The translations under genes were made by a program, and so were the position numbers. This document shows positions 14,601 through 64,000 of a stretch of 64,000 nucleotides of DNA, piece after piece; position 1 is the first letter of the stretch; each line of letters begins with the position of its first letter. A model generated the notes under the pieces. It did not search any database, had not been told where the DNA came from, and worked only from the letters and a program-made list of their open reading frames with translations. This DNA comes from Amphibalanus amphitrite (taxonomy: Eukaryota; Arthropoda; Thecostraca; Balanomorpha; Balanidae), in assembly GCF_019059575.1 (NCBI RefSeq), contig NW_024882208.1, positions 307,400-371,399 of the forward strand, in the 5' to 3' direction.

Positions 14601-17600
14601 GCAACCTCGCACCGCGCGCCGAGCGACCAGCCGGGCCGGCAGGAGAGGAGGCCAGCAGCCGCTGTCAACACGGACAGGGAGCTACCGCGAGCAGAGCAGA
14701 GAGTCTATACATATAGAGTCGCTGCCAGCAGACAGCTACCGCGAGCGGCGACGAGCAGAGCCACCATGTTGGAGATGGAGGCGGTACTGATACTGAGGGA
14801 AGCTTTTGTCCCTGTTCCCGTGCGACGAGAGCACTGTTTTCTGGCGGATTGCGATAGCGGTGGACAGGCTAATCTGTCGACAGGGGCAGCGGTGCCCTGT
14901 CGACAGTGTCCAGCGGCGGCAGAGGGTCCCAGTAGCGTGTCAGGACCGCCTCTGGTGACAACAGGAACACCAGCCCCGCACCTGGCCGGTGCCGTGAGCG
15001 AGGACCGCCGACCCGCTCGTTAGTGGAACATTGCCGCATTCCTCCGCCCCGTGGCCACCGTCTCGTGATTCCGCGCACGCCCCAGCTGGCAGCGAACATC
15101 CATGTTCACGTCAGATCTGACATGACATTTCGTGTCCAGCGGGTGAAAATGTGTGAAATTCAGAGGCATGTTTTTCATGCCAGTAAAAATGCAATAACTA
15201 GCAGCATAATTAGCCAGCTGATTGCGTGCGAGCTGCAAGTACATATAGATCACAAACACAATGATGGTTTGACGTGATGACATGATTAATGCATGTTATG
15301 GTGTTATGACTGCCCGTGTCACACCGGACACTCATATTGGAGCTTCTGACGGGCGCGCCGCGCGCGAATCCGGCGCCGTGGCCGCGTGTTTACCTTCCGC
15401 CGGCTCTCCGTCAACGCCGCCGTGACGTCCGGCTCAAGGGCGACCTTCGAGCTCCCGACATGCCTGGCGATCGGGCCTGCGCGCCGCCACCGCCCCCCGC
15501 CGCGGACCCCGGTCCCCCGGGGCCCCGCCGCCGGGCCCCGGTCCCCGGGCGCGCAGCCGCGGGTCCCCTGGGCCCCGGGGCCCTCGGCCGCCGTCTGCAG
15601 CTCCGCCGGGAGCGCCAGGTCCGCTGCATCGAGCGGCTGGTCGGCCCCGCCGGACCGAGTTCGGCTGTTGGCGGTCCGGGGAGACGGGTCGGCCCGTGTA
15701 CCGGCTCCACCGGTCCTGTCCGACCCCAGAGCGGCCACAGCGTCTGGACTCGGCTGCGGCGCGTGCTCGAGAGGCACCTCTGGCCATCTGGCCGGCCCGG
15801 GCCGCCACTCTCCCCTGCTGTCAGCGCCCCCCCGCCCCGTCCCCCGGCGGTGACCCCCCGGGGACCTGAGGTCACGCGGCGGCGGGAGGCGGCGCGCCGC
15901 TGTGAGGCCGTATCGACCGGCGGGCGGCGGCGGCGCGGGTCCCGCGGGGCCCTCAGTCCCAGTGAATTCCCAGTCGACCTCCCGCGGGACCTACCGGCGG
16001 CGTTCAATACTCCTGCAGGGCCGCCGCCGGCGCCCCCGCGCCGACCGGCCGGCCGGCCGCGCGCCGGCGGACACACCGCCTGACCTTGGGTCACCGGCAG
16101 GTCAGGGCGTGACCTGAGGTCACATCAGCAGACATGAGGTGAGTAGACAAACAGGTGACATGTGTCGGGGATGGTATAAGTTAACAATGCGGTAGATGTA
16201 GTGACTTCAGGTCCCTTGTTGACTAGCACAAGGCCTTTACCAGGAAACGCTACATCCGGTCACAGGACAGAGTGGGATGAAGGGTGAAGGGATAAGGCCA
16301 AGGGGAGACATTGGGCTGATTCGATAACCAGCTTGTGCGCCGCGGCGGCTGAGCCGTTCCCGTGGGACAGGCACGCCCCGGTGGAACAGACAGGTCACCC
16401 GGCTGCGCAAAAGGTCACCCCAGAGGAGTACGCTGAGCTCCAATGGGAACCGGCCCACAATCGGCTGTCGGGCGGTTTGAACTGATGAAAGTCAGCCCGG
16501 AAAAAGGAAGCATGATCAAAGATGAGAATCGGTTGTCCTAATGATAAAAGACGACGGATGCGACGAGGGGTCACATACCAGACATCGAATGACCGAGGAG
16601 GATTGTCGGGTCAGGTCTCGTCAGCCTCAGGCGTTATTTGCATGATCCCATAAGACGGCATCGAAGGAACGCTGCTAAAGGTCACCCCATCCTAAAGCGA
16701 GCGGCGGAAACTGTCGACATGGCAAGGAAATGCCAGTCTCATCACATGCGGGCCCAACGACGAAACAATGGATAAGAACTGTGGACACACAGAGCGAAGT
16801 TTACGAGCGGCGAACACCGGCTTCGCCTGCTGGTCAGTTTGACTGAAGTGGTCGGAAAGCCGGCCTGGATTACGATATGTGACGACCATGGTGGAAACAC
16901 CATTCAGTCGGTAGTTATGATTCGCCCGGTGATAAGGCGACACAGTTTTGACAACTCCAGTTATCAGTTATATAGTGTGTTATGACTTCTGAACGATAAA
17001 CAGAGCCAAGGCTGATTTACTGAGGGTGTGCCCGGTATAGCTAAATGCTGTGACACTACCGTGGGCCCGTGGGTAATGGGTATACGGGGAGCGGGATCAC
17101 GGGCTAAGCAAACCGTCATTACGGCATCCATCTGCTGCGTACCGCTACACCAACACAAAAAGAAAGGGTAAATGACTCGCGACCTCGACGTGGTAATGAA
17201 TGGAGAGTCGACGAACACTGACGATCGGCAAGGGAAATTGTGGATGTCCGTTGCGACCCATCCCGTACTATAGCAAGTCGTGGTACTGACAACCATGTGA
17301 CTACGGGCCCCAGCCTTATCTTGAAGAATCTTGGGTACTCGCGCTCGCACCCGGGCAGCGTATTCGCCAATTGTATTACACGAATCGGCCGACCAATAGC
17401 GTGCCTCCTGAGTGACGTCAGCGTGGCGTCATACTTTCGGTCCTCGCCCTTGGTGGCGTCTATTGAAGCTAGGTTTTAACTTAATGACATTTAAGCTGTC
17501 TAGAGCATGTTGTCGCCGTGGCGAAGTGGTTAGAGTATCGGACTGGTGATTCCGAGGTAGGTGGTTCGAATCCACTCGGCGACTTCGATTTTCGTGTCAT

Positions 17601-28200: not shown

Positions 28201-31200
28201 TGCTGTCACGAAGGAGGGAGTTTAAGACGTGAGCAGGCTAGTTATTAAATGCTATAAGCATTCATATCACGATGAATGTTCTCAAGTAATATTCTGAGGC
28301 AAAATTAATTTTCGTCTTCTGGTTTTCGCACACGAATCAAGACAGCCTTTTATTTTTCTACTTTATTTTTTTTTTGTGTGTAGCGACAACTAGCCCTATG
28401 CTGTTACACTACTAACTTCACCCGACCTCCAACATCGACCAAGTTGTCACGCTACCTCCCACCTTCCTAGATCGTTCCTCCGCTTTCTTACCTTCCGTGA
28501 GCATGGTGTACCCGACCAGGTACTTGAGGTAGATCTGCTCCAGTTTGACCGCCCGGTCCTGCGCGCACTTGGGCATGTGGATCAGATCGGCCACGGCCGG
28601 CCAGCGTCGGCCGGCGATCACGTCGTTGAGCCCTCCGAGTCTCTGCACGGTGTGGTAGAGGCCCGGCAGGTCGATCTCCATGCCGCCCACCAGCGGCAGG
28701 TCGTCCATGTCGATCTGCTGCTGCTCCAGGTACCGCCGGATGGCCAGCAGCTCGCGGAAGTTGGGCCCCCACCGGCGGAACACCTTGTGCACGTAGTGGT
28801 TGTACGCCACGAAACGCATGTCGTCGTCCACGCGGCATTCGGGCTGGGGAAAGGCGGGCAGAGGACGCGCTTAGAATACGGTAGGGAGCAGTCAACAAAC
28901 AAACATCGAGACACTCAGGTCCTAGTTGACTAAATGCCAGGCCACCACCAATATCAGTTTCCTGTGGTCTGTGTGGCATACGTGAAGTACCTTCCTCTAG
29001 AGGCGGCGATCCATGCTATTAAAATGAACAACCAGTCCCCATTAAAAGCTTTCAAACCATCCAACTGAAGAAACGAGCCCTCAGCCCACACCCCAGACAG
29101 TAAATGTTTCACGAAGTCTAATACCTTGAATCCTGGCGGCGGCACCACGCGGCAGAGCCCGTACTGTTCGGCCTCGGGTCTGATTTTCTCGATGTAGCGG
29201 AGCGGGTCGGAGAACTCCTTCTCGGTGGGACGGAACACGGGCACCTCCTGGAGCACGCCCAGCTCCATCGTGGACACCTTCCGCGCCCGCCTGACGTACG
29301 GGAAGGGAGAGAGGGTCAGGTGAGACATGGGGACAGTTAGAGCAGTTCACTGGCGAGCTCGAGACCGTCAACGGAGGCTACATGAGAAATATGGTTGGTT
29401 TGTGGAAGAGGAATTGGACTAATTTGTGCACTTAGAGTCATAGCAGGACATGTGTGTCAACTAATGGAATTTAAATAATCAATAAATACTGCACGAGTGG
29501 AGCCAAGTATTACTGAAAAAAGCAAGAATAGCAAGCAAGTTACAAACATCACCTCTTCCTTCGTGTGACGATCTCACTCACTTGGCTGGCGCGGGGCTCT
29601 GCGAGGACCTCCTGCTCTGCGGCGTCGACTCCCTGCCAGAGTCCTCCTCGCGGTCGAACCGGCGCCTCCCGCGTGCCGCCGGCGACATTGGAGACGCCGC
29701 CGAGAGCCGCTCCGCATCCGAGGACGACGAGGCCGCCTCGTCACCGGTCTTCTTCTTACCGCGCGCGGCGGAGGTAGGAGGCCGGCCGGCCGGACTGGAC
29801 TTGGGAGAGGGTTTGGGAACTGGTGTGGGTCGGTCGGAGGATTTGGATGAGGGTTTGGGTGTGGGTTTTGTGGCAGCGGGTGTGGAGGGGGTCTCTGATG
29901 AGGTTGAGGTTGCTGGACTAGCGGTCGCGGCTGACACTGATGCAGCCTTCTTGGCGGACGGAGCTGTCTTGGAAGACGGCGTCTTCTCAGCGGGTCGTTT
30001 CTGCGGTCGGCTCTCCGTTTTTCCGCTGCCTGCAGTCTCCACCGCCGCCGCAGTACTGGTGGCTCCTGAACTGCTCGTCAGAGGCGGTACCACGGCAGGA
30101 GACGGCGCCGCAGTCGCAGCTGGAGCGGCGGGGACCTTCTGAGACGGGACGGAGGGCTGGGCTCGTACCTCTGAAACCGGTGGCAAGGGTCCCGCGGTGA
30201 CGGTGCTGGCACTTGGCTTCTCCGTAGTCGCTGCAGGCCGGGCGGGAGTCCGCGGTGGAGCGGCTAACGCTAGTGTCTGGGCCGCGCCCGCGGCTGATCC
30301 ACGGACCGGCGCCGCCGGGACCGCTGGTTGGACAGGGACGGCGGCCTGAGGGGGACGATGAGTGGGGACGGGGACGGGGACGGACGGCGCCGGAGCGGGG
30401 GCTGAGACCGGCGCTGGGGGAGGTACCCGGGGCGGTACAGCAGAGATCTGTACCGGTAGTGCGCGGGACGCCGGTGGTACGGGCAGAGGGTGAGCCGGAG
30501 CCCCCGCCGCCGCCGCCAGGGACCGCGCCGCCGCCGGGGATACCACGTTGGCTGACCGGGACGGCGTGGCGCTGGCCGGCCGTGAGGAGGGAGCCGTGGC
30601 CGCCGCGGAGCTAGTGACGGTCGGCGCCGAGGTGGGTCGGGTCGTCACCGCCAGCGAGCGGGCCGAGTGGGCCGGTGACCAGGGAGCGGGGCCGAGCGGG
30701 CCCGCGGCACCGGCAGCTGACCGGCCCGGCACCGAGCGGTCCCTGGACGGCGCCATCGGCACGGGCGCCACCGGGACCCTCCCGGGCGCGGGCGGCACCA
30801 CTGGCAGCGGAACCTTGACGTCGGCCGGCGAGCCGGCGCCGCCGTCCGCCCTGCCGGCCACCGCCGGGGCCGGAGCGAACGCCGCTGCCTGCCTGAGCTG
30901 GGCGCGCACCGCCGCCTTGCTGTCGACCGGAGAGGTGAGCGGCGTGGGGACGCGCGGCAGCGGCAGCGGCGGCGGCGGCGGCTCGAGCCGGGCCGGCGGC
31001 GCACTCAGCACCGCCACACCGGTGCCGTGCAGCTGAGAAGCGCCCAGCAGCGCCAGTCGCGGCGCGAACGGAGACGCGCCGGCCAGCAGCGGGCCAGAGT
31101 AGGGCAGCGGGTAGTGCAGTGGAGGCGCCGCGCTGCTCGCCGGCAGACGGATCAGGCCCGGCGGCGGCACGCGCGAGGCGAACCGCGCCGCCGCGCTGGT

Positions 31201-34200
31201 GGCGGCGTCGGCGCTCCGCCGCCAGTCGGCCACCGAGCCGCCGTGCGGGTGGACGGGTTTGATGGGCGCGAGTCGGTCGGCGGGCGCGGGGGCCGAGGAG
31301 GCGGCTCCGGCGGACCAGGTGGCGGGCGCCAGTGGCCGTTTGCCGGCCGGCGGAGTCTGCAGCAGCGGGTACTGGCCGGCGCCGTACGAGCCGCTGGCCA
31401 GAGAGCCGGCGGCGAACAGACCGGCTGCGCCCAGCTGGTACTGCACCTGGCAGAGGAGGCGGCGGCGTGTCACACAAACGGAATACACAGGTGGGATGAA
31501 ATAATTCAGCAAAACGTTACATTCAGAAAAAATGATTATTACTGGAGAGTGTAATAGCCGACCCAATGATGCAGCGATCGCCAAAGACTTCATTCAGCTT
31601 TAGGAACGTTAAAAGAACCTCACTTACGGTCTCAACCATCACATATCCCCTCACCTGCTGGAAGCGCGGCTGTGGCGCCGCCGTCGGCTGCGGCTGCGGC
31701 GGCTGCAGCTGGTGCTGGACCAGGCCGGGCGGCGGCTGCACGCTGCAGCGAGGCGCCGTCACCGACACCAGCTGCAGCGGCCGGCCGCCCACCTCACCGC
31801 CTCCCACCGGGTACGGAGGCCGCAGCAGAGACACCGGCATGATGAGACGCGGCGCGGCCGCCAACAGCGGCTGGGAGACGGCAGAGGCCGCCAGCGGCTG
31901 GCTGGCGCGCTGGGCCAGCGGCTGTGCCAGAGAGTGGACCGGGGGCTGCGCCAGAGAGTGGACCGGGGGCTGCGCCAGAGAGTGTACCAGAGGCTGGGCG
32001 ATGGGCTGCACGGCGGGCTGAAGTGTAGCCTGGGCAGCAGGCTGGACAGGACGCTGAGCTGTTGACTGGACGGGAGGCTGAGTCACTAACTGAGCTGGGG
32101 GCTGAGTCGCCGGCTGGACGGAAGACTCTGCCGCTGTCTGAGTCGTCTGAGGTTGACTCGGAGCCGTCACCACCGCCTGTACCGGCGGCTGGGAGACAGC
32201 CGGAGACTCTGACGGCGGGTCCCGCCGCTGGGCCGGCGACTGGGTCGATCCCTCGGCAGCGCCCTCCGGCGGCCCGGGCCGTCCCTGTCCGCCGGACGGC
32301 GGCCGCTGTGGCGCCCCCGACCCTCCCCGGGCCGGCTGCGGTGACAACCCGCCGGCGCTGGACTCCGCTGCCGCCGCCGTCGGCTCCTCGGTCTGACTCT
32401 GCACGGAGCAGTCTGTTTGCTGCGCCGCCGCCGCCTGGGTCTGCGTGCCCGAGGAGACGTCCGCGGGCGGCACCTCCTCGTCCATGTTGACCTGGATGGC
32501 GATGGTGCAGGTGGAGCGCTCGGGCGCCGCCGGCGGCTTGTCCTCGCTCGTCGACGTCGCCTCCGAGACGGTCTTCACGGCGTCGCTCGACTGGCGCAGG
32601 GATGTGAGCGAGGAGAGGTTCTCGTCCGAATCGAACTCGTACACGCCCATGGCCGGCCGGGAGTCGGCCAGCGAGCCGCCGGAGCGAGCCGCTCCGCCCC
32701 GCCGCTGGGTCAGACGACTGATCCTCCGCTGCGCTGACTCCTTCAGTTTGGACAGGAACGAACCGTCTGTCGATTTCGACGAGACGCTCTTTTTCTTAGT
32801 CGGCGTGTGCCGTGCGCTACTGGACGGCGATGAGGGCCGAGGTCGCTTCTTCTGGGTCCGATCGCTTGACTCGCGGTCGGTTGAGTGCCGTGTGACCGAC
32901 GACTCCCTCTTCAGACCGCTCTTGGCTCCCGGCGGCGGGGTGGCCGTGCCGGCGCCTGCCTCCACCGCGGTCGAGGACGCCTCCCGTCTCTCCACGGTGG
33001 GTCTCCGCTCGGCGGAGGCGGCGCGGGGCGCGCTGCTGCCCGCGGTACTGGACACCGCCGGCGCGGTGTTCGGAGTGGACCGCTCGGCGTCACTGGGTCT
33101 GGCCGGCTGCCGGGACCGAGGTCTGATCACGCTGATCAGATCATCGTCCGTGTCCGTATCGATAATGTCGTACGAGAAGAACGCCTCGCTGCGCTTCCGG
33201 AGTGTGCGGCGCGGTTTGTCGGCGGACGGAGGTGGCGGCGGCGAGGCGCGCTCCTCGCTGCTGGAGGTATGCGCCGGCGCGCGGCGACGGCTGGCCGGCC
33301 GCTCCTCCGTGCCGCTGCTGCTGTCCTCCCAGCCGTGCCGGCCCGGCACGAACGCCCGCTTCCGGACGGCGCCGGCGATCGGCAGCGACTCGGGCCGCCG
33401 GGAGCGGGTCACCCGTCCCGACTGCTCGCTGTCCGAGCTGGCAGCGTCGGCCGGCGGCGGCGGCGGCGGCGTCTCCCACGAGCGGCGGCGCCCCGTCCCT
33501 GCTCCCGCCCGCAGCGGGCGCCGCGCCGCCGGCTCCTCCTCAGAGCTGGAGGACGGCGGGCGGCGCGGCGGCGGCGGCGCGCGGGCACTGCCGGAGCGGG
33601 GCGCCCGCCGGGGTGGTGGCGCCCGGCTCGACTCCGAGCTGCTCCCCTCCGATTCAGCGGGCTTGGACCGGCCCGGCTTACCATCCCGAGATTCCAGCTC
33701 CGAGTGAGACGCCGCGGGCACCGCTGCCCGACCGTTCGGCCTCTTCTTCGCCGAAATCGGTTTCGGGGATTCACCTTTGACAGAGCCGGGATCTGTTCTG
33801 CGCCGAACGTCACGAGCTGTCTTCGGCTTTTCCTTTTGATTCGATTTGCCTTCACTTTCATCTTCCGAACTAGAGACAGGCTTTTTCCTCTGACTAGATA
33901 CAGCGCGTTTCGGAGGATTTACCTTCTCTTTTTTGCTAGATTCATCCGATGAGACATTATTTCTTCTACTCGCTGGCGTACTATTCTTCTTGACAGCCGG
34001 TTTCGCTTCCGCTCCAGACTGTTTGGCTGGTCCCGGGGAGTCTTTGGGCACCTTACTGTCCGGCTGGCGGGTCTTTGCCTTGGCCTGCGCCGTTCGCTGG
34101 CGACTGGCCTCCCGGGTGGTGCTGCGGCTCGTCTCGGTCTCACTCTCCGAGGAGCTGGAGCCGGCCGTCCGGCGCGCCCTCCGCCGCTCCCTGGCCGCGG

Positions 34201-37051
34201 CCGGTACCGGAGTCCTGTCCCTCCCCGCGGCGGCCGAGCCCGGCCGGCGCGCCTGCCGCCAGCCGCGCCTCTCCCTGCCCCTCGGCGGCGCTCTCTCCTC
34301 CTCTTCCGAGCTGCTCTCGTCCTTCCGCGCCTCCTCTCTCGCCTGTTTGCTGGCCGGCTCCGGCGTCTTGTTCGCCTTCTTGGCCGCCGGTCGACCTGCC
34401 GTTCGGCCGGCCGGTGTTTTCTGTTCGGCCGGCGGGGTGCGGTCCGAGTCAGACTCTGCCGGCGGGAGGACGGTACCGTCTCGGAGCGTCCTCCCGGCCG
34501 GCGGCGCCTCATCCTCCTCCTCAGATTCCTCGGAGGAGGAAGAGGACTCCAGCGGTTGTACGCGGCGGCCGTCCCGCAGCGTGCGAGGACTGGCGGTCCG
34601 CTCGGCGGCCGGAGGCTCGTCATCATCACTGCGCGGTACGGGCTCCTCCACCCAGAACCAGAACTTGCTCTTGGAGCGGCTGGCCAGCGCCACCTTGGGC
34701 CGGGCGGGCGCGTCGCCGCCGGCCGTCCGGCGCTCGCTCCTCTCCGAGTCCGAGGGGTCGTCGTCGCTGCGCCGGCCAGGCCCGGAGTCTGCGCTCATCC
34801 AGGAGCGGCGCAGGGCGGGCGGTCTGCCGGGTGCCTCCCGACCCGACCTGGGGCGGGGAAAAACGGTCAGTCTTCTGATAACAATGGAGTTTATATAGGA
34901 TCGAGAAGTGACAGATATTTGATAGTCGGAAAATTATCGAGGCACTGCCATTTTACAGCAGCTTCAGGACATAAAAAATCGGTTTGGATTTACAGAATGC
35001 GAAAATCCTTCAGAGAAAAAATCGATTGCTGTGACAACCCTATAAACATTCGAACATCCCTCAACTCAAAGCATGTATGTATACAACACGTTGGTAGAAT
35101 CCCGTCCTCTGGACGCTCACCTGCCGGACTCGGCGCGTACTTTCCTCCTGTCCGCCTCCCTCCTCATTTTTCCCGCCATCTGCTGCCGCAGTCGCGCCCT
35201 CTGTCGGATCCTCGCCACCGCGTCGGTCGCCGGCCGGCGGGACCTGACCTGCGCCGCCGCCGCCGACCGCTCAGCCGCCGCCTTCGACGGCCGGCCGTCC
35301 GAGGCTGGCGGCGCGCCCGGCCGCGGTTTGGATGTCTCTGAGGCGCCCGGTCGGGGTTTGGACGTCTCGGCGCCGGCCGGCCGGGCCCGGGACGGAGCGC
35401 CGGAGCCGGCCGGTCGCTGTCGGGCGCCGCGCGCGATCTGGGCCCGCGTCAGCCGCGCGAACGGCCGCTGCTGTTTGAGCGTGGTCAGTTTGATGGCCGG
35501 TCCCGAGGACGGGTAGCGCAGGCTGCTCGATACCACCAGCCTGAGACGGGAGAGATGCAACGCGTCACCGGGGTGCACCGATTCAATCCAGTGCGAAGCT
35601 GTGCATTGTTCGGGGCACAGACTTCGGAGTAATAAAACATACGGACGGTTAATGCAACAACGGCGAACAATGAATATCTTAGCTTTGGTTGAGCCAAAAT
35701 AAACAAAAGTATACCTACGTAATGTCGAACAACTATTGACGAGCTCAGTCCTCTCAAACTACCCCTACAGTCTCCCCTCTGAGCCCACCTCTGCAGCATG
35801 CGCGCCTGCTTGTCCACCGCCTTCTGCGCCCGCAGCTTGGCCGACTGCGACTTCTTCTTGGCGATGAGGCTCGAGTGTGAGAGTTTGCGGAGCACCACCT
35901 GGGCACGCTTCAGCGCCGGCGCGACCTTCTCCGAGCGCGAGCTGGACACGGAGGAGGGAGAGTCGCGCGCCGACCGGCTGTGCAGCGCTGCAACGGCAAC
36001 ACGGGGAGCTCATGTGCCGGCTAAGGCCATATCAGTCCGTGAACAAGGTTTAGTTCATGTGTGCAAAAACGAAGAAGAATAAAGTTAGCTTCCAGTTTAG
36101 TTGAAAGGGTACTCAATACTCACCACTATTGTGCTTCTGAAAGAGCGGTTTTGTCGCCGACATTTTGACGTGCCCGTTCTGGCGGATCCCATTAGCACTC
36201 TTCTGATCCTGCAACACCGGAAAACCTCAATATTATTATCACCTCTACTCTACAGTTTACACACCCATAAATAAAGAACAAGACAGTAGTAAAATTTCAA
36301 TGCAACCACATCGAAAGCAAATCACGTCTATGAAGTAACAATTCCACTGCGCTCCCCCGCTGCACACTAACCTTGGCGCGCGCGTTGGCTCCGGCGCGGC
36401 CGGGCGAGCCCTCGTGCCCAGCGGCCGCCGAGGAGCGGGCGGGTCGCCCCGCCCGACTGCCGCTGCTGCCCGGCAGAGGCGGGTGGTTGAACCGCTCTAG
36501 GTGTGCCGGTAATCGAGACGTGCCTGGGGGAGCCGACGAGGGGTTAACATCATATGGTGGTCTGCATGGGATGAGCTTCAGAAGTCGGGGGTGTTGTGGA
36601 AGAAATATATACCGCTAGCTTATTTCTTCAAAAATACTGTTCAACTTTTTCAGTTTGAAACCCGATTGGATACTGGAGGCCGCAAATCACAACACAAAAC
36701 GTTATCCCTTCCTGATGCTTTCGGCCCCGGGATAATTTCGAAACGTTCCACATTCCACTTCTAATCTCCGAATCAGCGCACTTGTCGACGCCGCCGGTTA
36801 CCTCTGAAGCAGAGGAAGGTGATGAAGTCCTCAGTCTTGGGCAGCGGCCCGTCGGGCGGCAGCGGCGCCGGCGACGGCGGTCGGGAGGAGGCCGCCGGCG
36901 GCGACGGCGGCGCAGAGCCCGCGCACGGCGTGGCCACGCCCTGCGCAAACTTGCGCTGCGCGAACACCTTGCGTTTGCTGAGCAGCGGCGACTCTGGGGA
37001 CGGCGCGCTGGCCGTGCGGTCGCGCACTGTGTCGCGCTTGGAGCGCGGCAT
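23926..37051 (-). CDS. JARID2: JARID2 (Jumonji), PRC2 accessory protein, 19 coding exons
   Basis: Exons on the minus strand: 37051-36802, 36523-36372, 36208-36124, 35987-35789, 35540-35121, 34847-31655, 31446-29582, 29290-29125, 28843-28492, 28134-27989, 27677-27567, 27164-26990, 26719-26610, 26365-26223, 25851-25695, 25296-25134, 24884-24766, 24455-24345, 24027-23926. They total 8019 nt with every phase matching, giving 2672 aa, about twice the vertebrate length. Diagnostic matches: AQRKFAQ and [13 protein letters not shown] near the N-terminus, then JmjN, ARID, a JmjC lacking iron ligands, and a degenerate C-terminal zinc finger. In animals JARID2 recruits and tunes PRC2 (H3K27 methylation) in the nucleus. 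The ATG at 37051 lies in a good context (GCGGCCATG) soon after an acceptor, so a non-coding exon should lie upstream. An additional coding exon there cannot be excluded. Confidence 0.93.
25695..27677 (-). CDS. JARID2: JARID2 JmjC domain exons (pseudo-demethylase)
   Basis: Five exons: 27677-27567 ([18 protein letters not shown]), 27164-26990, 26719-26610, 26365-26223 and 25851-25695. They align across the JmjC fold, e.g. [14 protein letters not shown]-like [16 protein letters not shown], and [19 protein letters not shown]. Active JmjC demethylases bind iron through HxD/E and a later H. In KDM5 the site reads CWHIED; here it is CWYSDP, so the first His is Tyr. The later His position, after the PRAF/PRAY block, is Thr. 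The enzyme should therefore be inactive, as known for JARID2. Near 26.15-26.22 kb the donor region of exon 26365-26223 is partly duplicated within the following intron. Confidence 0.9.
26148..26235 (-). repeat. Duplicated donor of a JARID2 JmjC exon
   Basis: On the gene strand, the exon end CGACCTGCTGGCTGA plus donor GGGGGTACGTACTG occurs at 26245-26211 (genuine) and again at about 26176-26148, about 70 bp into the intron. The second copy keeps a usable GTACGT. Confidence 0.65.
28492..29290 (-). CDS. JARID2: JARID2 JmjN and ARID exons
   Basis: Exon 29290-29125 encodes the JmjN domain ([20 protein letters not shown], then the [10 protein letters not shown] block). It joins in phase 0 to exon 28843-28492, which encodes the ARID DNA-binding domain, including [40 protein letters not shown] and LGGLNDV. 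The upstream exon ends at 29582 in phase 2 (AA|GTGAGT), which restores the JmjN frame. Gene order and intron positions match an animal JARID2. Confidence 0.93.
29582..34847 (-). CDS. JARID2: JARID2 giant disordered region (two large exons)
   Basis: Exon 34847-31655 (3193 nt) encodes a low-complexity chain rich in S, E, R, K and P, with many acidic SSSSEEE runs in the first half and Q/P-rich repeats ([13 protein letters not shown], at about 31.9-32.1 kb) in the second. Exon 31446-29582 (1865 nt) continues with A/P/S-rich sequence and ends in a basic, serine-rich tail. The exons join in phase 0 (CAGCAG|GTGCAG). Together they supply about 1,686 residues with no recognisable fold. In vertebrates the equivalent region carries nucleosome- and RNA-binding patches; no specific equivalent can be aligned here. 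The open frames on the opposite strand are shadows caused by GC-rich codons. Confidence 0.82.
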
Positions 37052-41420: not shown

Positions 41421-51946
<10,526 letters not shown>

Positions 51947-52350
51947 CTGCAGCCAGCACACCAACTGCTCTGTAGCTGGCGGCAGTGACTGCAGTCAGCA
52001 CACCAAACTGCTCTGCAGCTGGCGGCAGTGACTGCAGTCAGCACACCAAACTGCTCTGTAGCTGGCAGCAGTGACTGCAGTCAGCACAGGGCGGCAGTGA
52101 CTGCAGCCAGCACACCAAACTGCTCTGCAGCTGGCGGCAGTGACTGCAGCCGGCGCACGGTGGCAGTGACTGCAGTCAGCACAGGGCCGCAGTGGCTGCT
52201 GCCAGCACAGGGCGGCGGCAGTGACTGCAGCCGGCGCACGGTGGCAGTGACTGCAGTCAGCACAGGGCCGCAGTGGCTGCTGCCAGCACAGGGCGGCAGC
52301 AGTGACTGCAGCCAGCACACCAAGCTGCTCTGCAGCAGCTGGCGACAGTA

Positions 52351-54559
52351 GCGGCGCAGTGAGGCAGTGGCGGCGCTCGTAACGCCGAATACGCCAGACA
52401 TTCAGTGCCAACCATCCGCCATCGCACGGAGCCGGCCGGGAGGACGGGTGGGGCAGCGAGCGAAACACCGGGACTTGGGGAGAGGATTGTAGCGTAGGAG
52501 CTAGCGGGCGGAGAGAAATGCTCGAGACCTGTTTAGGAGAGGAAGGATAAAACTGAAGCCTGATGTTCGCCCAGTCATTCAGGAATTACTTCATTGTCCA
52601 GTGGATGTCTGTGCCGTGCTGTGTTGTGTTGTGCGCTGGTGGATTTATTTGTGACAGAGCCGGAGGCGGCCGGGTAAGCGGGTCACTGCCCGTGTATTTC
52701 CGTTCGAGATAGTCCCGTGCCATATTTATCATTTGTTGCTTTTTAGGTTGATTTTATCATTAGCATTCCACTTTGTTGAGGCGCGGTGAGCTGGGCTGCT
52801 TTGTTTTCTGGGAATCATGTGCTGTCGGACTGCCTGTGCCTATTGCATTAATTTTGGTTATGGAACGCCCCGCAACGGGTTGGGTGCTACCAAAGAGCTT
52901 GGTTGTCAGGATATGAGGGCTTTCTGGGAGTACAAGACTTTGATCATGCTTCGCTTTGCGTTATGTTGAATCGTAGTTTATATTAATTCTATTTTCGTAC
53001 ATCGATTGATAAGTCGTTCCCCTAAATGCGAGATATTTCACGATCGACTGTGATTGACCATTTATGTGATTTTTTTTTGTGAATCAAGCATTCCACGGCA
53101 TGCATTTTTGTAATACAATTGCTCAAATCGAACGCTTCGTCTGTCCCGCGGGACTCGGAACAGTACCTAATACCTATTGCAGAGCGCCTCTCAACCATGA
53201 TTTTAGTCCTTATGAGCCGACCGAGAGCCCTGGGTAGTCGATACACCGTCCGACCACGACTCGAGAACCTTCCTCTCAATCCACTGTTGCCCGGTCCGCC
53301 TCATCGCGGCAGAGCCTGCACCGGGCCGCAGCCCGCATGGCAACTCTTCTTCATGATGCTCGACGCCTTTTTCGAACCCATTCCCATTCCCAGTACCCCA
53401 CAAAAAGAGCGCAGAAGCATGTAAGTTTATTGGCCATTACCAGAACGAGGCCTGGCCCGGTGGGCTGTGGCCCGCCGAAACTGCAGCAGCGGCGCACTGC
53501 TGCTGCTGCTGCTGATGTATCCGAAGGAGCTGAAAAAGGCAGTCAGTGCGAACACGAGCACAAGAGCAAGACTTAGCACCCAGCGATTCCTTACGTTAAC
53601 AGAGCGTGATGCACGGAATCGTGAGATAGGGGGAAGCGTTCGTCTGTGCGTCAGGGAAGACTTAATCTGTCCAGTTCAGAGATTAAGTCGTGAGGCAAAT
53701 GATAAACATCGCTAAGAGCGAATTCGAAAGAAAAGGACGTATTTGGCAAGTGGAGATGGCAAATCGATACCTTTAGCATTACCACCCTGGCGGACAAGTG
53801 AAAGTGCGGATAAAGACGGGGGCGATTCAAATATGAAGAGAATTTGTGCAGTAGGAAGTTTTCATCTCTGAATACATGACTTTAGGCCAGAGTCTGAGCA
53901 GCTGAGGGGGTCAGGAAGCGGGATGTCCCGGGGTTGGCACGTTACCGGCATGGGTCCGTCCGAGCGAGCCGGGTCCGAGTGTGGCGCTCCGGCGTGCAGC
54001 GGGGTCCTGTCCTGTCCTGATCCTGATCCATCCATGATTCCGTGATCCATGATTCCGTGATCCTGATCCGTGACCATCCTATCCAGTGCCACACATCCCC
54101 TTCACATCCGATCCAGAGTGATATCCCGGCCATGAAATCCATTTCCGCGTGTGTCTGTGTGCTATCCAATGCATCCAAATCCAATCCTGGGGCTATCCAA
54201 TGCATCCTTGATTCTATAAAAACAAATGCAGGAAAGAGTGTTAGACGCCGCACAGACATACGTACAAAACAATGACATCGAGCATGTTTACCGCTTGTGT
54301 TTAAATTGAAACATCCAATTACATTTAAGACCGTTTATGAACCAACCCCACATACAAATGGTGAATGAACTTAAAATGCCGAGGGCGAGCACTACTCGCG
54401 CCTCCCCCGAATGTCCACAAACACACACAGGCTACTGACAGCGAAAGGTCAGAGGCTTATGAACCTTGGGCTGTGAGCTCCGGGCGTCGCGGGTCCCCAG
54501 TCTGCGTCTTCAGGCCGCCGGCGTGCGGCCGCCGCCCCTCCTCGGCCAGTCGGCTCCGC
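52351..54559. other. Convergent 3' flanks of NAGK and SRSF1
   Basis: Contains the 3' ends of both genes, which face each other. No additional exon or RNA gene was recognised, and the short open frames do not resemble known proteins. Confidence 0.5.
54000..54130. repeat. Short GATCC-rich repeats in the SRSF1 3' flank
   Basis: CCTGATCC, ATGATTCCGTGATCC and related short units recur several times just downstream of SRSF1 (which reads leftward). Confidence 0.6.
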
Positions 54560-58315: not shown

Positions 58316-59062
58316 TCTACACATCTGATTTTTGTTCACTTTAAAGCTGCCCACACCAGAAGTTTCACCAACCATTTGAAAAAAATAGATATGGTATTGG
58401 TTAACACCATAAGTACTGGGCATGAATAAACAGTAGTTACTAGTTAGACTGCCTCATTACTTTTCACATAAGATTTTTGTGTGGCTAGCCACATTCCTAA
58501 GTGGCCTAAGGCTAAAACTGACCATTGCAGTCAACTTTTCTTCTGGTTCAGTTGGTATTAGTGCAGTGTACCTACATGGTGTCCCTCTTGTTCTAGTCAG
58601 GTAGGATGCCCAGTAGCAGTCATCCCTTACAGAACACACAAGAAATTTGAAATGGTCATGTTCAAGGATTCAAGGTCATTGCTCCACCAATCACAGTTTT
58701 GATAAATTGACAAAGAATCATCTTAGATCATGATTTCATGGCATATGTACCTATCTAAGACCTAAGTTACCTATAAGATCTCTGCAAGTCCTAGATCCTG
58801 GTTCCTGGTTGGTTGCTAGATGCTGTGAAATCATTGAGTCAGCACAATTTTTTATGTGACATTTAATGGACTCATAGATCCTGTTCTGTAGTTTGCTCAG
58901 AATGCAAAATGATGAAAGACCTCACACAGATGTGTGCATATGTCTGCTTTCTGAATTGTTTCATTGTCTGTTTCTTTCTGCTTTGTTTTAGTTCACTGCA
59001 CCTTGAACCAAGTGAAGACACAGTGTGTTTCTGTCACACTGGCAAGTGTATTGAGAAGAATC

Positions 59063-62000
59063 ATGGGCTCAGCCAAAGTTGTCATTGAATACTGGTGAGT
59101 TAGATGCCTGTATCTGTTGTTCATTAATTACTTAACCTGTGCTTGTTTTCAATTTCGCTGTAAGTCAAACATGTGCCAGACCCACCAATTAGTCCAGCAA
59201 TCCTAAGATAAATTTACCTCTTATTAATCTTAATTTGGAATCGAGTTAATGGCCCACTGGGGACCAATGTTTGTATTTATAAATTTCCCTGTAATTTTTC
59301 TTTTAAGAATGGGTGTGTTTGTAAAACATTGCTTGAGCTTTGAGCTTGGTCACATTTTGATGGTTTTGGGTGCTGTACCAATTTTACTTTGTCTATGATG
59401 ATTTTATTATGCTTAAGTTTGACTAAGATGATTTGAATGAAATGCTTGGAAAAAACAGAGCCTCAGCTAAGCAGTCTGAGTCCCTCAACCCTTCCTACAC
59501 TAGTCTGGTCGGCAATTTCCCAGTGGTCGGAAAAATAATAGACGTGAAACCTAGTCCTGCGCAGGCACGGCCTGTCTCACTCAACAGGTGTGCTACTTAT
59601 TTACATAAATGCTTCATACTGAGCAGAGATAGTTGCTGATCGGTCTGAAATCCGTCCTTTCCGCTGTGTGGCCGCCGGCGGCACAGCTCCGGCCGCGGCC
59701 CGGGTTTCGCTATACGGCTCCGATCCCGCGGGCGATTGTGCTGACTCGCCGGTATCCCGGAGAGGAATATTCCCGCTTTGCTGAGCCAGTGCAATGTCCG
59801 GCGGATCTAGAGCGGGCACAAAGGAGAGCTGCAAAATACGCTGGTCCGGAGTTCGTGCTTTATCGGTGGATCAGAACGGTGTTTACATTGTAACTGCTGA
59901 CGGGTCGACTTGACTTTTAAACCCGACTGATCCATCGGTGATGCGTGATTATGCATACTCCGCGGGGGCAAGGGCCAAAGTGTCCTCAGCTCCTGCTCAT
60001 TTGTGTATTATTGATATTATGTAATACTCATGCAATTCACTTCTTCAAATTCTTTGTCTCTCGTTATTAATATCGTACTTGTCACTTGGTTTATAACATA
60101 ACATAGCAATAAACGTAAAGCTGACCGATAACCACCGTCACTGCTTTTAACTGTATGGTTCTCTCAAAAGGCGCGGTTTAGCGCCGTGAGTGGCGTTTTC
60201 CGTCGATCGCCCCAATCCAGGGCATTTGTGTTTTATTATGACAAGTGCCGCCTGTGGCTACCGCAGCTGTGTTCTGTGGTTCACGGTGGTACCTTAGAAC
60301 ACACATGGCCGTTGGTTTGATCCTACCCCGATCCCCGCTATCCCTCCCACATCCCTCCCGCCGTCCGCCGCCCATCGTCCAATGCCAGGCTTCCCCTGCG
60401 TGTGCATATGCGGTACGTAATGTGGACACAGCTGGTTTAACGAATGTGGGATGGCTAATGTTTACGATGATGGCGTAGACTGTACGTTCAGGCTGAGAGC
60501 GCAGGCCCGTTGTCGGAACAAAGGAACTAAGGGTAGCCTGGCTACCTGAGAATGCCGTGCCTGCGTGGCAGGTGCAGTGATTCCAATTTTATGTCGTTTC
60601 TGTGTCATATCCGGGCAGTTTAGCCACGTATAGCTAGCCAAAACTCTTGAGCTCTTCCTAGAATGTCCCGTGCCATTGGTTCTCTGTGTCTTGTTCTCCC
60701 ACCACCGCGCACCGTGTTCCCCTTTCGCCGTGTCTGCCGTGCGCGCTGCTGACGCCGCCGGCCGTTCCAGCGGCGGGTGAGGGTACGAGCCGCAGTTCCG
60801 GGAGCTGCAGGCCCTGATCGGGTCCAGCGTTCCCGGCGCTGCCGTCGACGGCTTCGTCGGTCGCCAGAGTAAGTCTGCCAGCCGCGTGTGCTGTGAGTAG
60901 CTAGTGGCTGACCGGGCCGGCCGGCCGTGTCCTGTTGCAGCGGCGGATGAGGGTACGGGCCGCGGTTCCGCGAGCTGCAGGAGCTCATCCAGAGCAATGT
61001 GCCCGGAGCCGAGGTGGAGGGATTCGTCGGCAGACGATGTGAGTGGTCGCCGGCGCGGGGGGCCGGGTAGAGGGGCAGACCGCACCCGGAACAGAGAAAA
61101 GATACGGCAAGGCATCCAGGTTGGGGGGTTGAAAGACACGGACAATTTCCAGCAAGCATCTGACTGATAGACTTTCGGATAGTTGATGTCAGAAAAGTCG
61201 ATCAGTCTTGAAGTGACCAAACGCACGGTTGCAAGTTTTCGTGGTAGATATATTTGCATGACCCTCTATAAACGTTGGCAATAGATGCATGCACGTTTTC
61301 TTCAACTACGATCACAGTATGTGTAATGTTGTGTCTTGTTCTATGGTTTCCAGAATTAGATACTTATTTGAAGGAAACGCGTATTTCAGATTTACCGCTC
61401 TCTATAATGTCCATTTTTCCGCAGGTCCGCCTTTTCCAACATGGCTGTGTCTTCATAAATCGTGACCTGAAAAATGTGATGCGAGGTCATAAACGTCGAA
61501 TGTTGATACCTTAACTCTCCGCGACATACGGAGAGCTTATGCAACTCCCTAGGGCTTTCGTGAATATATCTAGACGTGCCGAAAGCCGAAAGTTGCCAGT
61601 GTTTTACATTCATCCTAATCGTTTTGATTTGGGTGGGATTTATTGCCTTCCAACGTATGTCTTGGTGTAATGCAATCTCGATAATAAGTGTTAATTTGTA
61701 TGATATCGACTAAATAAGGTTCTCTGGGTCCAAGGTCGAGTTCTTGCAAGGTGACGCATGGTAGAGGCTATGTAGAGACCATTTTACAGATTCGACTCAG
61801 TCATTTTAGTGCTGGCTTTTTATTCTGGTCATAGTCATTTTAATTTTTCATGTCAACCTGTGACCTGTTAGGTCGATGGCCAAAGGTTGGTTTCTGATTG
61901 TCGGTTTTTAAGACGGTGAAAATGACCGTAGAGCTACGATTTTGACGACGTGTTTGACAAAACGAATTATTCATAAAACGGTTGGCTTCTGTAATTTGGA

Positions 62001-62216
62001 CGCTAACTGCCCTTAGCAAACCCTGACCTCCGTTTCCGCCTTTCGCCTGCAGCGTCATTTGAGGTCAAGGTGAACGACCAGGTGGTGCACTCCAAGCTGC
62101 AGACCATGTCGTTCCCCGACTTCAAGGAGGTGGTGACGGTGGTGAAGGAGGTGTCGGACGGCGCCGCGCCGCGCCAGGTGGAGAAGATGCAGCCGGCATC
62201 CTGCGTCACCGTCTAG
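59063..62216 (+). CDS. SELENOW: Selenoprotein W (Rdx family), with two alternative Sec exons
   Basis: Exon 1 is 59063-59094 (MGSAKVVIEY-TG), exon 2 is 60771-60868 or 60941-61038, and exon 3 is 62053-62216. Either version gives 294 nt, 97 aa, the normal SelW size. Exon 1 ends in TG, so the next C makes Cys and exon 2 reads C-G-G-UGA-G-Y, the CXXU redox motif of SelW; UGA is read as selenocysteine. Exon 3 gives SFEVKVNDQVVHSKL and SFPDFKEVVTVVKE, matching the thioredoxin-like fold (compare FEIEINGQLVFSKL in the paralogue MIEN1). The expected role is a small cytosolic thiol oxidoreductase. Without Sec insertion the protein would stop after 14 residues. A 5'UTR piece (58992-59062) follows a TGTTTTAG acceptor. 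Confidence 0.9.
60771..60868 (+). CDS. SELENOW: SelW alternative exon 2A with in-frame TGA (Sec)
   Basis: Acceptor GCCGTTCCAG, donor CAGA|GTAAGT, 98 nt. The TGA at 60778-60780 occupies the U of CGGU. The following residues GYEPQFRELQ and LIGSSVPGAAVDGFVGRQ match the first helix and second strand of SelW-like proteins. It is entered in phase 2 and left in phase 1, identical to exon 2B. Confidence 0.88.
60941..61038 (+). CDS. SELENOW: SelW alternative exon 2B with in-frame TGA (Sec)
   Basis: Acceptor TCCTGTTGCAG, donor CGAT|GTGAGT, 98 nt. The TGA at 60948-60950 is at the same position as in 2A, preceded by TGC-GGC-GGA. It encodes GYGPRFRELQELIQ and SNVPGAEVEGFVGRR, differing from 2A at 8 of 29 residues plus many synonymous sites. 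The intron separating 2A from 2B is only 72 nt, and 98 nt is not a multiple of three, so joint inclusion would be both sterically hard and frame-breaking. Confidence 0.88.
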
Positions 62217-62743
62217 CCGCCCGAGCTGGGACGGAGCGGCGCCGGCGCCGCCCTCTGGAGTGAGGCGGCCGCACTGACATCTGCAGGGCCAACGCGGCAC
62301 GGAGCGGCACAGGGAACGGTGAACGGCCACGGATGCGGCGTACGTTCGTCGGTCTGATATTTACGGATCGGCGGCTCCTTTGTCATGAAATTGTACACGT
62401 CATTTGGACACCATTCAGATAAGATGTCAGTGTATAATAATTCTTGCGTCTTCTTAGTTCTGACAACCGTTTCTTGGCTGATAGTCTTTACAGCTGTCGA
62501 TCTCTGTATTTTTGGTCAAAACGGCATGTGGAGGGACTAAGCGAAAATATCGTTTTCTGCTCATTTCACACAAATGGTTCAGCGATGAATTTTGCCTTTA
62601 TCAACGTCGCGCAGCCTGTGTCGTGCCGTTTCCGTGCCGCGGTAGCCGCTACACTCCTCCTGAGGGCTGCTGCGGCGCTGTGTCTGTCCGGCGGGGATGC
62701 CAGCCCGCCACCCTGTCCCCTGGGATCTGTGCGGTGACCCGGG

Positions 62744-62810
62744 CCGCTCCGGCGGATGACCGGCGACCCTGAAAGGCTGACCGTGTCCGGGGGTCGCCGC
62801 GAGGAGCGCC
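62744..62810 (+). promoter_or_regulatory. Candidate SECIS element in the SelW 3'UTR
   Basis: About 540 nt after the SelW stop. The order is ATGA (62756-62759), then 12 nt, then AAA in the apical loop (62772-62774), then GA on the 3' side (62801-62802). Helix II pairs 62761-62769 with 62791-62799 (nine Watson-Crick pairs, CGGCGACCC with GGGTCGCCG). A lower helix can form between GCTCC (62746-62750) and GGAGC (62803-62807). This is the eukaryotic SECIS layout: SBP2 binds the non-canonical ATGA/GA quartet. There is a C-C mismatch just above the quartet. Hand-folded only. Confidence 0.72.
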
Positions 62811-64000
62811 AGAGCCGCCCTGGCCGCCGCTGAGGTCTCAGGAGGACAGACGTGTAGAGCTAGTGGGAGAATATAACCGTTTATTTTGCTCATGAATGTG
62901 ATGGGAAACATGATATTGGGAATGATTTGTTCTTTCGATACTGATTTAGCGCACCTCGCTGCAACCGATCTGAATGCAGAGCGAATTGGTGTCTGTCTGT
63001 GCAGCTGTGTGCGATGGATACTACGTCTTGGACTGTTTCGCTTTGTGAAGATCTACAGGCTGATCTGTCGGCTGCATCACCATGAACATAGAGGGAACTA
63101 GACCCTTTTACCGTCCAATAGAATTGTTTGTAGTATGGATTGTTCGCTCTAAGTTGCATGAACTCGCATACCTACAAGAGAATCCCAGCAGTCACATGCC
63201 TAACTCTGATGATATCGATGTCACAGCTCAACGAACCTCGACAGAACTCTTTACCGACGTGGTCGTTAGACGGATAATACATTTTTACCATTAGTTGTTG
63301 CCCTGTGTGTATCGTTTGTGTCATTTTTCCTCATAAGCGAAGTGATCTAGGCGTGCACGGATCGCAGCGTTGTGTGCGAGCGAATGTGAGTGAATGTGTT
63401 CGTTGAAATTGCGAGTGCATACAATCGCACGGTTGTAAAGAGGCGTAGAACTGACTGACTGAAGAGTCAGTGGGCAAACGACTGTGTCAGGACTGCTCTC
63501 TGTTTGACACTCATCACGCCCAGCCAGCCGTAGCAGCTGACTGTCTCTGTCAGTTGTCGCTTTTGCCGGGGCGGGGTAGACATTCGTCTGAAGCCTCGGG
63601 CTCAGCAGGGCGGTATGTATCAGAGATGTATGAGGGAGGGAGGCGTGGTTGTGGAACATAATGTGTGCCTTTTGAGAAAGCCAAACGATCATTTCATTCA
63701 CTGTATCACGTGATATGGTCTAAAAATAATTCCTTTTTCGGGGCCGTTCTCAACGGTGCAAGGCTACTCTCGTGGCTCGGAGTCTAAGACACCGGAGCCT
63801 CGGTCTTCGTGCCACGGGGAAACGGGCGCAAAGGGAGGATTTTTACGGCCACACAGTGAGCGATAGGAATCCGAACAGACTGGTGGGATATCTGCTTTGG
63901 GCGTACGGTCAATTATCCATTTACAAATTCAGGTACGCTCCGGCGGGCACTCTTGTTTGATGCGGGCCCACAGCGGCGGGGCGTGGCTTTCCTCGAAGTA
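62811..64000. other. Downstream of SelW: no recognisable gene
   Basis: After the SECIS candidate the sequence is of ordinary composition; an AATATA followed by a T-rich stretch near 62870 could serve polyadenylation. Short frames at 63.3-64.0 kb are not recognisable. Confidence 0.4.

Follow-up and report, generated by a model that had tools for sequence, protein, structure and literature searches.

Two tandem selenocysteine-encoding exons in a SelW2/MIEN1-like gene of the barnacle Amphibalanus amphitrite

The nearest precedent for the gene described here appears to be ascidian SPS (SPS-ae), in which alternative 5' exons give rise to either a selenocysteine (Sec) or a Gly isoform (PMC4561486; this and all other papers are cited for the parts of their text that were available). 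Splicing of another kind is described for Selenoprotein S, or VIMP, where alternative 3' splicing includes or removes the selenocysteine insertion sequence (SECIS) (PMC3628699; also PMC4561486). Fish and frogs have SelW2 as a selenoprotein, which zebrafish carries as the tandem genes SelW2a and SelW2b (PMC3316567), and Dscam is mentioned among the arthropod genes that have mutually exclusive exons (PMC4244043). Here we analyse a 64-kb stretch of the genome of the barnacle Amphibalanus amphitrite (the window, G000:C711:307400-371399), in which a gene best called a selenoprotein of the SelW2/MIEN1 branch contains two tandem versions of its second exon, 2A and 2B, each with its own in-frame UGA codon. 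We consider it probable that this single gene gives rise to two proteins through mutually exclusive use of the duplicated exon.

Like ascidian SPS-ae, which has a SECIS in the 3' untranslated region (UTR), the barnacle locus is one selenoprotein gene, with predicted isoforms that differ in the exon holding the Sec position and a putative SECIS past the stop codon; unlike it, the barnacle alternatives are internal and the Sec UGA is present in both (PMC4561486). As in Selenoprotein S, a selenoprotein mRNA would be alternatively spliced, but the putative barnacle SECIS would be common to both forms and it is the active-site exon that would change (PMC3628699). Membership of the Rdx family and a CxxU or CxxC motif near the N-terminus are shared with SelW2, Rdx12 and MIEN1 (PMC3316567; PDB 2LJK), whereas the vertebrate SelW2a and SelW2b copies are whole genes and the barnacle has duplicated one exon within a gene (PMC3316567). 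An initial annotation of this DNA had called such a gene undescribed. Among the matches listed in the open-access literature (subscription papers and preprints lie outside this scope) there is indeed no selenoprotein gene with two Sec-encoding alternative exons, although ascidian SPS is a partial precedent and the claim of novelty has to be narrowed to that extent.

Mutually exclusive exons usually vary ordinary coding segments, and we know of no set with a recoded stop codon in each alternative. Myosin heavy chain has such exons, and alpha-tropomyosin exemplifies the steric model of their exclusion. The barnacle pair resembles arthropod mutually exclusive exons in being tandem, equal in length and phase, apparently too closely spaced for joint splicing and frameshifting if both are used, while each alternative supplies a recoded UGA of its own and both would rely on one putative SECIS. 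If both isoforms are made, they would constitute a natural active-site swap in SelW2/MIEN1, a branch about whose function and partners little is known, and any differences in partners or substrates could be traced to the nine differing residues next to CxxU. The locus also illustrates how an alternative-exon system may be overlooked altogether by gene prediction that treats UGA as a stop.

Exon 1 (coding part 59063-59094), either 2A or 2B, and exon 3 together encode two 97-residue proteins, each with one in-frame UGA at the same place (Table 1). The splice sites are regular, with conventional donors and acceptors that end in CAG, and a further non-coding 5' exon likely lies upstream, because an AG seen by eye at 58990-58991 precedes the start codon. 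The initial annotation was exact in its coordinates and in its account of the pair. Both exons are 98 nt long, are preceded by AG and followed by GT, complete a Cys codon (TG/C) on entry and share their exit phase, with a gap of 72 nt between them (60869-60940), and in both the TGA is the third full codon, which places it in a CxxU motif (C-G-G-U-G-Y). The residue pairs that it had listed are likewise correct, 8 of the 29 full codons after the UGA encoding different residues; a ninth difference, Thr/Ser, comes from the codon that is interrupted by the exon 2-exon 3 boundary. The nine are, as 2A/2B, E/G, Q/R, A/E, G/Q, S/N, A/E, D/E, Q/R and T/S, and the charged residues encoded amount to two basic and three acidic in 2A and four basic and four acidic in 2B.

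We infer that 2A and 2B are used in a mutually exclusive manner. They match each other at E = 1.8e-14 in a self-search of the window, and are homologous tandem exons of equal phase, one of the criteria by which mutually exclusive exons are recognised. Their length argues against joint inclusion, as had been proposed, since transcripts with both exons, or with neither, would be frameshifted. The 72-nt spacer is also short for this genome: the shortest of 94 estimated introns (61 from CCT genes, 23 from myosin and 10 from SepSecS), which are not independent, as haplotype pairs are counted twice, and whose lengths are estimated from profile boundaries, measures 184 nt. For CCT all 101 rows were used, and the 61 pairs of adjacent exons that were kept have gaps in the profile between -12 and +3; for myosin 62 of 100 rows were used (those left out include single-exon matches, repeated relay-exon matches and a pair 52 nt apart) and for SepSecS all 12, with gaps between -16 and +5 in the 23 and 10 pairs kept.

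Within 100 nt upstream of 2B there is a single yTnAy branch-point match (Table 1), which lies 42 nt from the 2A donor, and alpha-tropomyosin exons block each other at a spacing close to this. The spliceosome would pick either 2A or 2B without splicing one to the other, since in the 72-nt spacer the predicted branch point of 2B is only these 42 nt away from the 2A donor. A closely spaced pair of myosin exons, about 52 nt apart, is found at C1610:111059-111392 (L025) and on C1212 (L026), contigs that are 98.2% alike, with matches to profile positions 241-287 and 241-288. It probably corresponds to an alternative exon already described in the myosin heavy chain of arthropods; if so, short-gap exon pairs would serve exclusive splicing elsewhere in this genome. 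Further myosin sequence, on each contig three exon matches in a row at about profile 376-436, occurs at C1366:116359-119022 and C1447:139102-141640 and presumably represents alternative relay exons.

The genome searched is an 807.6-Mb assembly of 2644 contigs, and the ND5 sequence of its mitochondrial contig is 100% identical to that of Amphibalanus amphitrite, with 91% for the next named barnacles. The two haplotypes have apparently been assembled separately without being collapsed, because many CCT genes, SepSecS and tRNA-Sec recur on contig pairs. A second copy of the locus lies on contig C151, collinear with the window in pieces that are 91-95% identical, down to 87% in the final one. A paralogue or segmental duplicate was considered for this copy and rejected, since other genes also occur in contig pairs and the other haplotype is the simplest explanation. 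Allelic divergence of similar size is described in the related Balanus improvisus (median 5.3% over 66 genes; PMC8270832). Whole-genome searches with the exon DNA and with the protein (E <= 10, eight candidates scored) each matched the window locus and its second haplotype only. Another Rdx gene was reached with the Rdx family profile, at C501:430272-430388 (L028) and C1181:61880-61996 (L029), with 39 bits; this genome-wide profile search missed the window's own copy, so that the searches for paralogues are not fully sensitive. No third copy of the exon was seen in the window, where the remaining matches up to E = 10 span 10-44 nt and look like chance.

The two exons differ at 27 of 98 nt, with 4, 8 and 15 differences at codon positions 1, 2 and 3. 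By the Nei-Gojobori method, the synonymous divergence (dS) is 0.92 (0.44-2.4) and the nonsynonymous divergence (dN) 0.21, giving a dN/dS of 0.23 (bootstrap 0.06-0.58), with 0.05% of resamples at or above 1. In drift simulations, which model substitutions only, an unconstrained copy remains intact (splice sites, frame, Cys and UGA all preserved) in 5.2%, 1.2% and 0.3% of cases at 0.3, 0.5 and 0.7 substitutions per site, respectively. Between haplotypes there is no difference in 2A (0/98), the spacer (0/72) or 2B (0/98), 0/268 in total, nor in the coding part of exon 1 (0/32), and exon 3 has 2/164; no identical run in the haplotype alignment, which covers about 10.6 kb, is longer than the one around the pair (288 nt, 60759-61046). 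Since intron divergence between haplotypes is 6.2% and 9.4% against the dS of 0.92 between the exons, the age of the exon pair would be roughly tenfold that of the haplotype split. The proposal that selection keeps both exons agrees with the intact state of both, with the low dN/dS and with the absence of haplotype differences; a broken copy in relatives was looked for in the second haplotype only, and both copies are intact there.

Both predicted isoforms match the Pfam Rdx family (PF10262, cut-off 22.6 bits), the 2A product with 61.3 bits (E 1.1e-16) and the 2B product with 68.5 bits (E 6.1e-19). The nearest solved structure is that of C17orf37/MIEN1 (2LJK, 59.9 bits), followed by SelW (2NPB, 29.5 bits), and on these scores SelW1 was dropped as the family label for SelW2/MIEN1. 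The initial annotation had spoken of a Selenoprotein W gene choosing between two redox-active Sec exons; two intact, constrained Sec exons and a frame that bars their joint use or skipping speak for such a choice, but the Selenoprotein W label has to give way, MIEN1/SelW2 being nearer.

A profile search yielded 115 relatives at E <= 0.01, with names that include migration and invasion enhancer 1 and selenoprotein W2. The in-frame UGA of the window gene aligns with a Cys in homologues (CxxC in 12 of the 115); CxxW is present in 28, which we take to be UGA rendered as Trp by other pipelines, and the site is not visible by these patterns in 75. A Cys at position -4 is shared by the window gene and 98 of the 115 relatives, and MIEN1 itself has one. 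Over the exon-3 part, identity to the window gene is 79% for P0002 and 74-94% for P0003, P0004, P0008, P0012 and P0032, the rest reaching at most 64%, and we take these six sequences to come from barnacles or near kin. P0002, 67 residues from a 1124-base JGI contig, has its exon-2 and exon-3 parts contiguous without an intron, and carries the D, Q and T of 2A in place of the E, R and S of 2B. This stretch is visible in 95 of the 115 relatives, and D, Q and T occur in two of them (P0002 and P0010), which favours expression of a 2A-type exon in another species. In P0003 and P0004, by eye, an intron apparently precedes exon 3 in the same position. In viral contigs, 116 stretches fit a pattern and none of them encodes a relative.

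The SECIS-like element lies 540 nt past the stop codon and shows ATGA followed after 12 nt by AA, together with a GA on the 3' side, in a sequence that folds into a stem (Table 1). A pattern scan of both strands of the 64 kb, with rules set after the element had been seen, returned this single match, and its 77 nt are identical between haplotypes. A second stem at about 62387-62455, picked out by eye, was dropped as it has no 3' GA. The genome holds two copies of tRNA-Sec (score 75.1 bits, cut-off 47), both with anticodon TCA, a family that also scores above threshold in 5 of the 14 control genomes, and two copies of SepSecS, found in 3 of 14 controls. From tRNA-Sec and SepSecS, the organism appears to be capable of decoding Sec.

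In the mechanism that we propose, the one downstream SECIS-like element would direct recoding of the UGA in either isoform mRNA. Selenium chemistry and the CGGU motif would stay constant while the nine residues past CxxU change, altering the choice of partner or substrate. In SelW-like folds the segment after the redox loop forms the first helix and the next strand, and it could plausibly form a partner surface. The distance from the UGA to the exon 2-exon 3 junction is 88 nt in both isoforms, and by the established rule both mRNAs would be expected to undergo nonsense-mediated decay under low selenium. A fuller version, in which the locus is a splice switch between two Sec active-site cassettes, the duplication predates the barnacle lineage split, and the isoforms differ in partners or substrates at constant selenium chemistry, is one that we put forward tentatively, with somewhat less than even confidence.

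Several points weigh against the interpretation of one gene with two proteins. Use of either exon in this species is predicted from genomic sequence, the dN/dS estimate comes from 32 codons, and the identity of the block around the exons could stem partly from recent shared ancestry rather than selection, because a second identical run of 261 nt is present at 54021-54281. The 2A-like states of P0002 may be ancestral and are not proof of orthology, as P0010, from another lineage, has the same states. With regard to the SECIS-like element, 37 of 3000 random Markov-1 UTR-like sequences also pass the scan, its 3' core CGAG is presumably not the commonest SECIS form, and the Rfam model SECIS_1 does not recognise it, a result that is uninformative since the same model is blank genome-wide and in 14 control genomes. 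None of AATAAA, ATTAAA, AGTAAA or TATAAA is present from the stop codon to the end of the window, where the weaker poly(A) variants are at 62870 (AATATA, the first), 63117 and 63276.

Of the other explanations, one that we regard as unlikely is that a single exon, probably 2B, is used, with 2A a rarely spliced or decaying duplicate behind a weak acceptor. The pyrimidine tract at 2A is poor (GACGCCGCCGGCCGTTCCAG), the Rdx score is higher for 2B (68.5 versus 61.3 bits), and 2B has the commonest states of the relatives at positions 17, 19 and 43; yet despite the high divergence 2A retains its frame, UGA, Cys, both splice sites and a GTAAGT donor, is free of haplotype differences over its 98 nt at a dN/dS of 0.23, and is resembled by the spliced relative P0002. 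The frameshift caused by taking both exons or neither could alternatively mean that the exons are alternative but that their joint inclusion or skipping switches the protein off instead of giving two proteins. This seems very improbable, as inclusion of both would put the first non-Sec stop 19 nt inside the final coding exon, where it would trigger decay poorly, and skipping of both would, apart from the UGA of codon 14, meet no stop before exon 3 ends. By the standard of this genome the spacer is also shorter than a spliceable intron, and the copies are constrained at the protein level. That uncollapsed haplotypes make duplicated sequence common in this assembly would lend some colour to an assembly or gene-conversion artefact, which we nevertheless hold to be barely credible: the same pair stands in both haplotypes, on separate contigs, and 27 differences in 98 nt are too many for an assembly duplicate. 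Two proteins from one gene, through alternative use of 2A and 2B, thus remains the interpretation that we favour.

Table 1. Positions of the gene's features within the window
Feature	Position	Strand	Details
First coding exon with 5' UTR	58992..59094	+	ATG at 59063; donor GTGAGT; 5' end inferred from AG 58990-58991; haplotype-identical run 58993-59107
Exon 2A	60771..60868	+	Sec UGA 60778-60780; encodes (C)GGU-GYEPQFRELQALIGSSVPGAAVDGFVGRQ; donor GTAAGT
Spacer 2A-2B, 72 nt	60869..60940	+	Sole yTnAy match CTGAC, A at 60911
Exon 2B	60941..61038	+	Sec UGA 60948-60950; encodes (C)GGU-GYGPRFRELQELIQSNVPGAEVEGFVGRR; donor GTGAGT
Last coding exon, common to both predicted isoforms	62053..62216	+	Stop TAG 62214-62216; C-terminus CVTV, Cys at -4
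SECIS-like element	62744..62820	+	ATGA 62756-62759, AA 62772-62773, GA 62801-62802; minimum free energy -37.6 kcal/mol

Elsewhere in the window, the 261-nt haplotype-identical run at 54021-54281 sits inside a stretch that is otherwise about 5% divergent, near a frame that by eye resembles an SR splicing factor. Frames resembling a JARID2-type chromatin protein were seen by eye at 28418-34933 on the minus strand, as were long repeats with long open frames at 45942-46894 on both strands and at 48493-51994 on the minus strand. A mitochondrial contig, at C2644:6754-8547 on the minus strand, has a nad4 frame with a near-repeated segment of about 90 residues (by eye), perhaps an assembly error. The window also holds a tRNA gene at 17512-17584 (Rfam, 45.7 bits).
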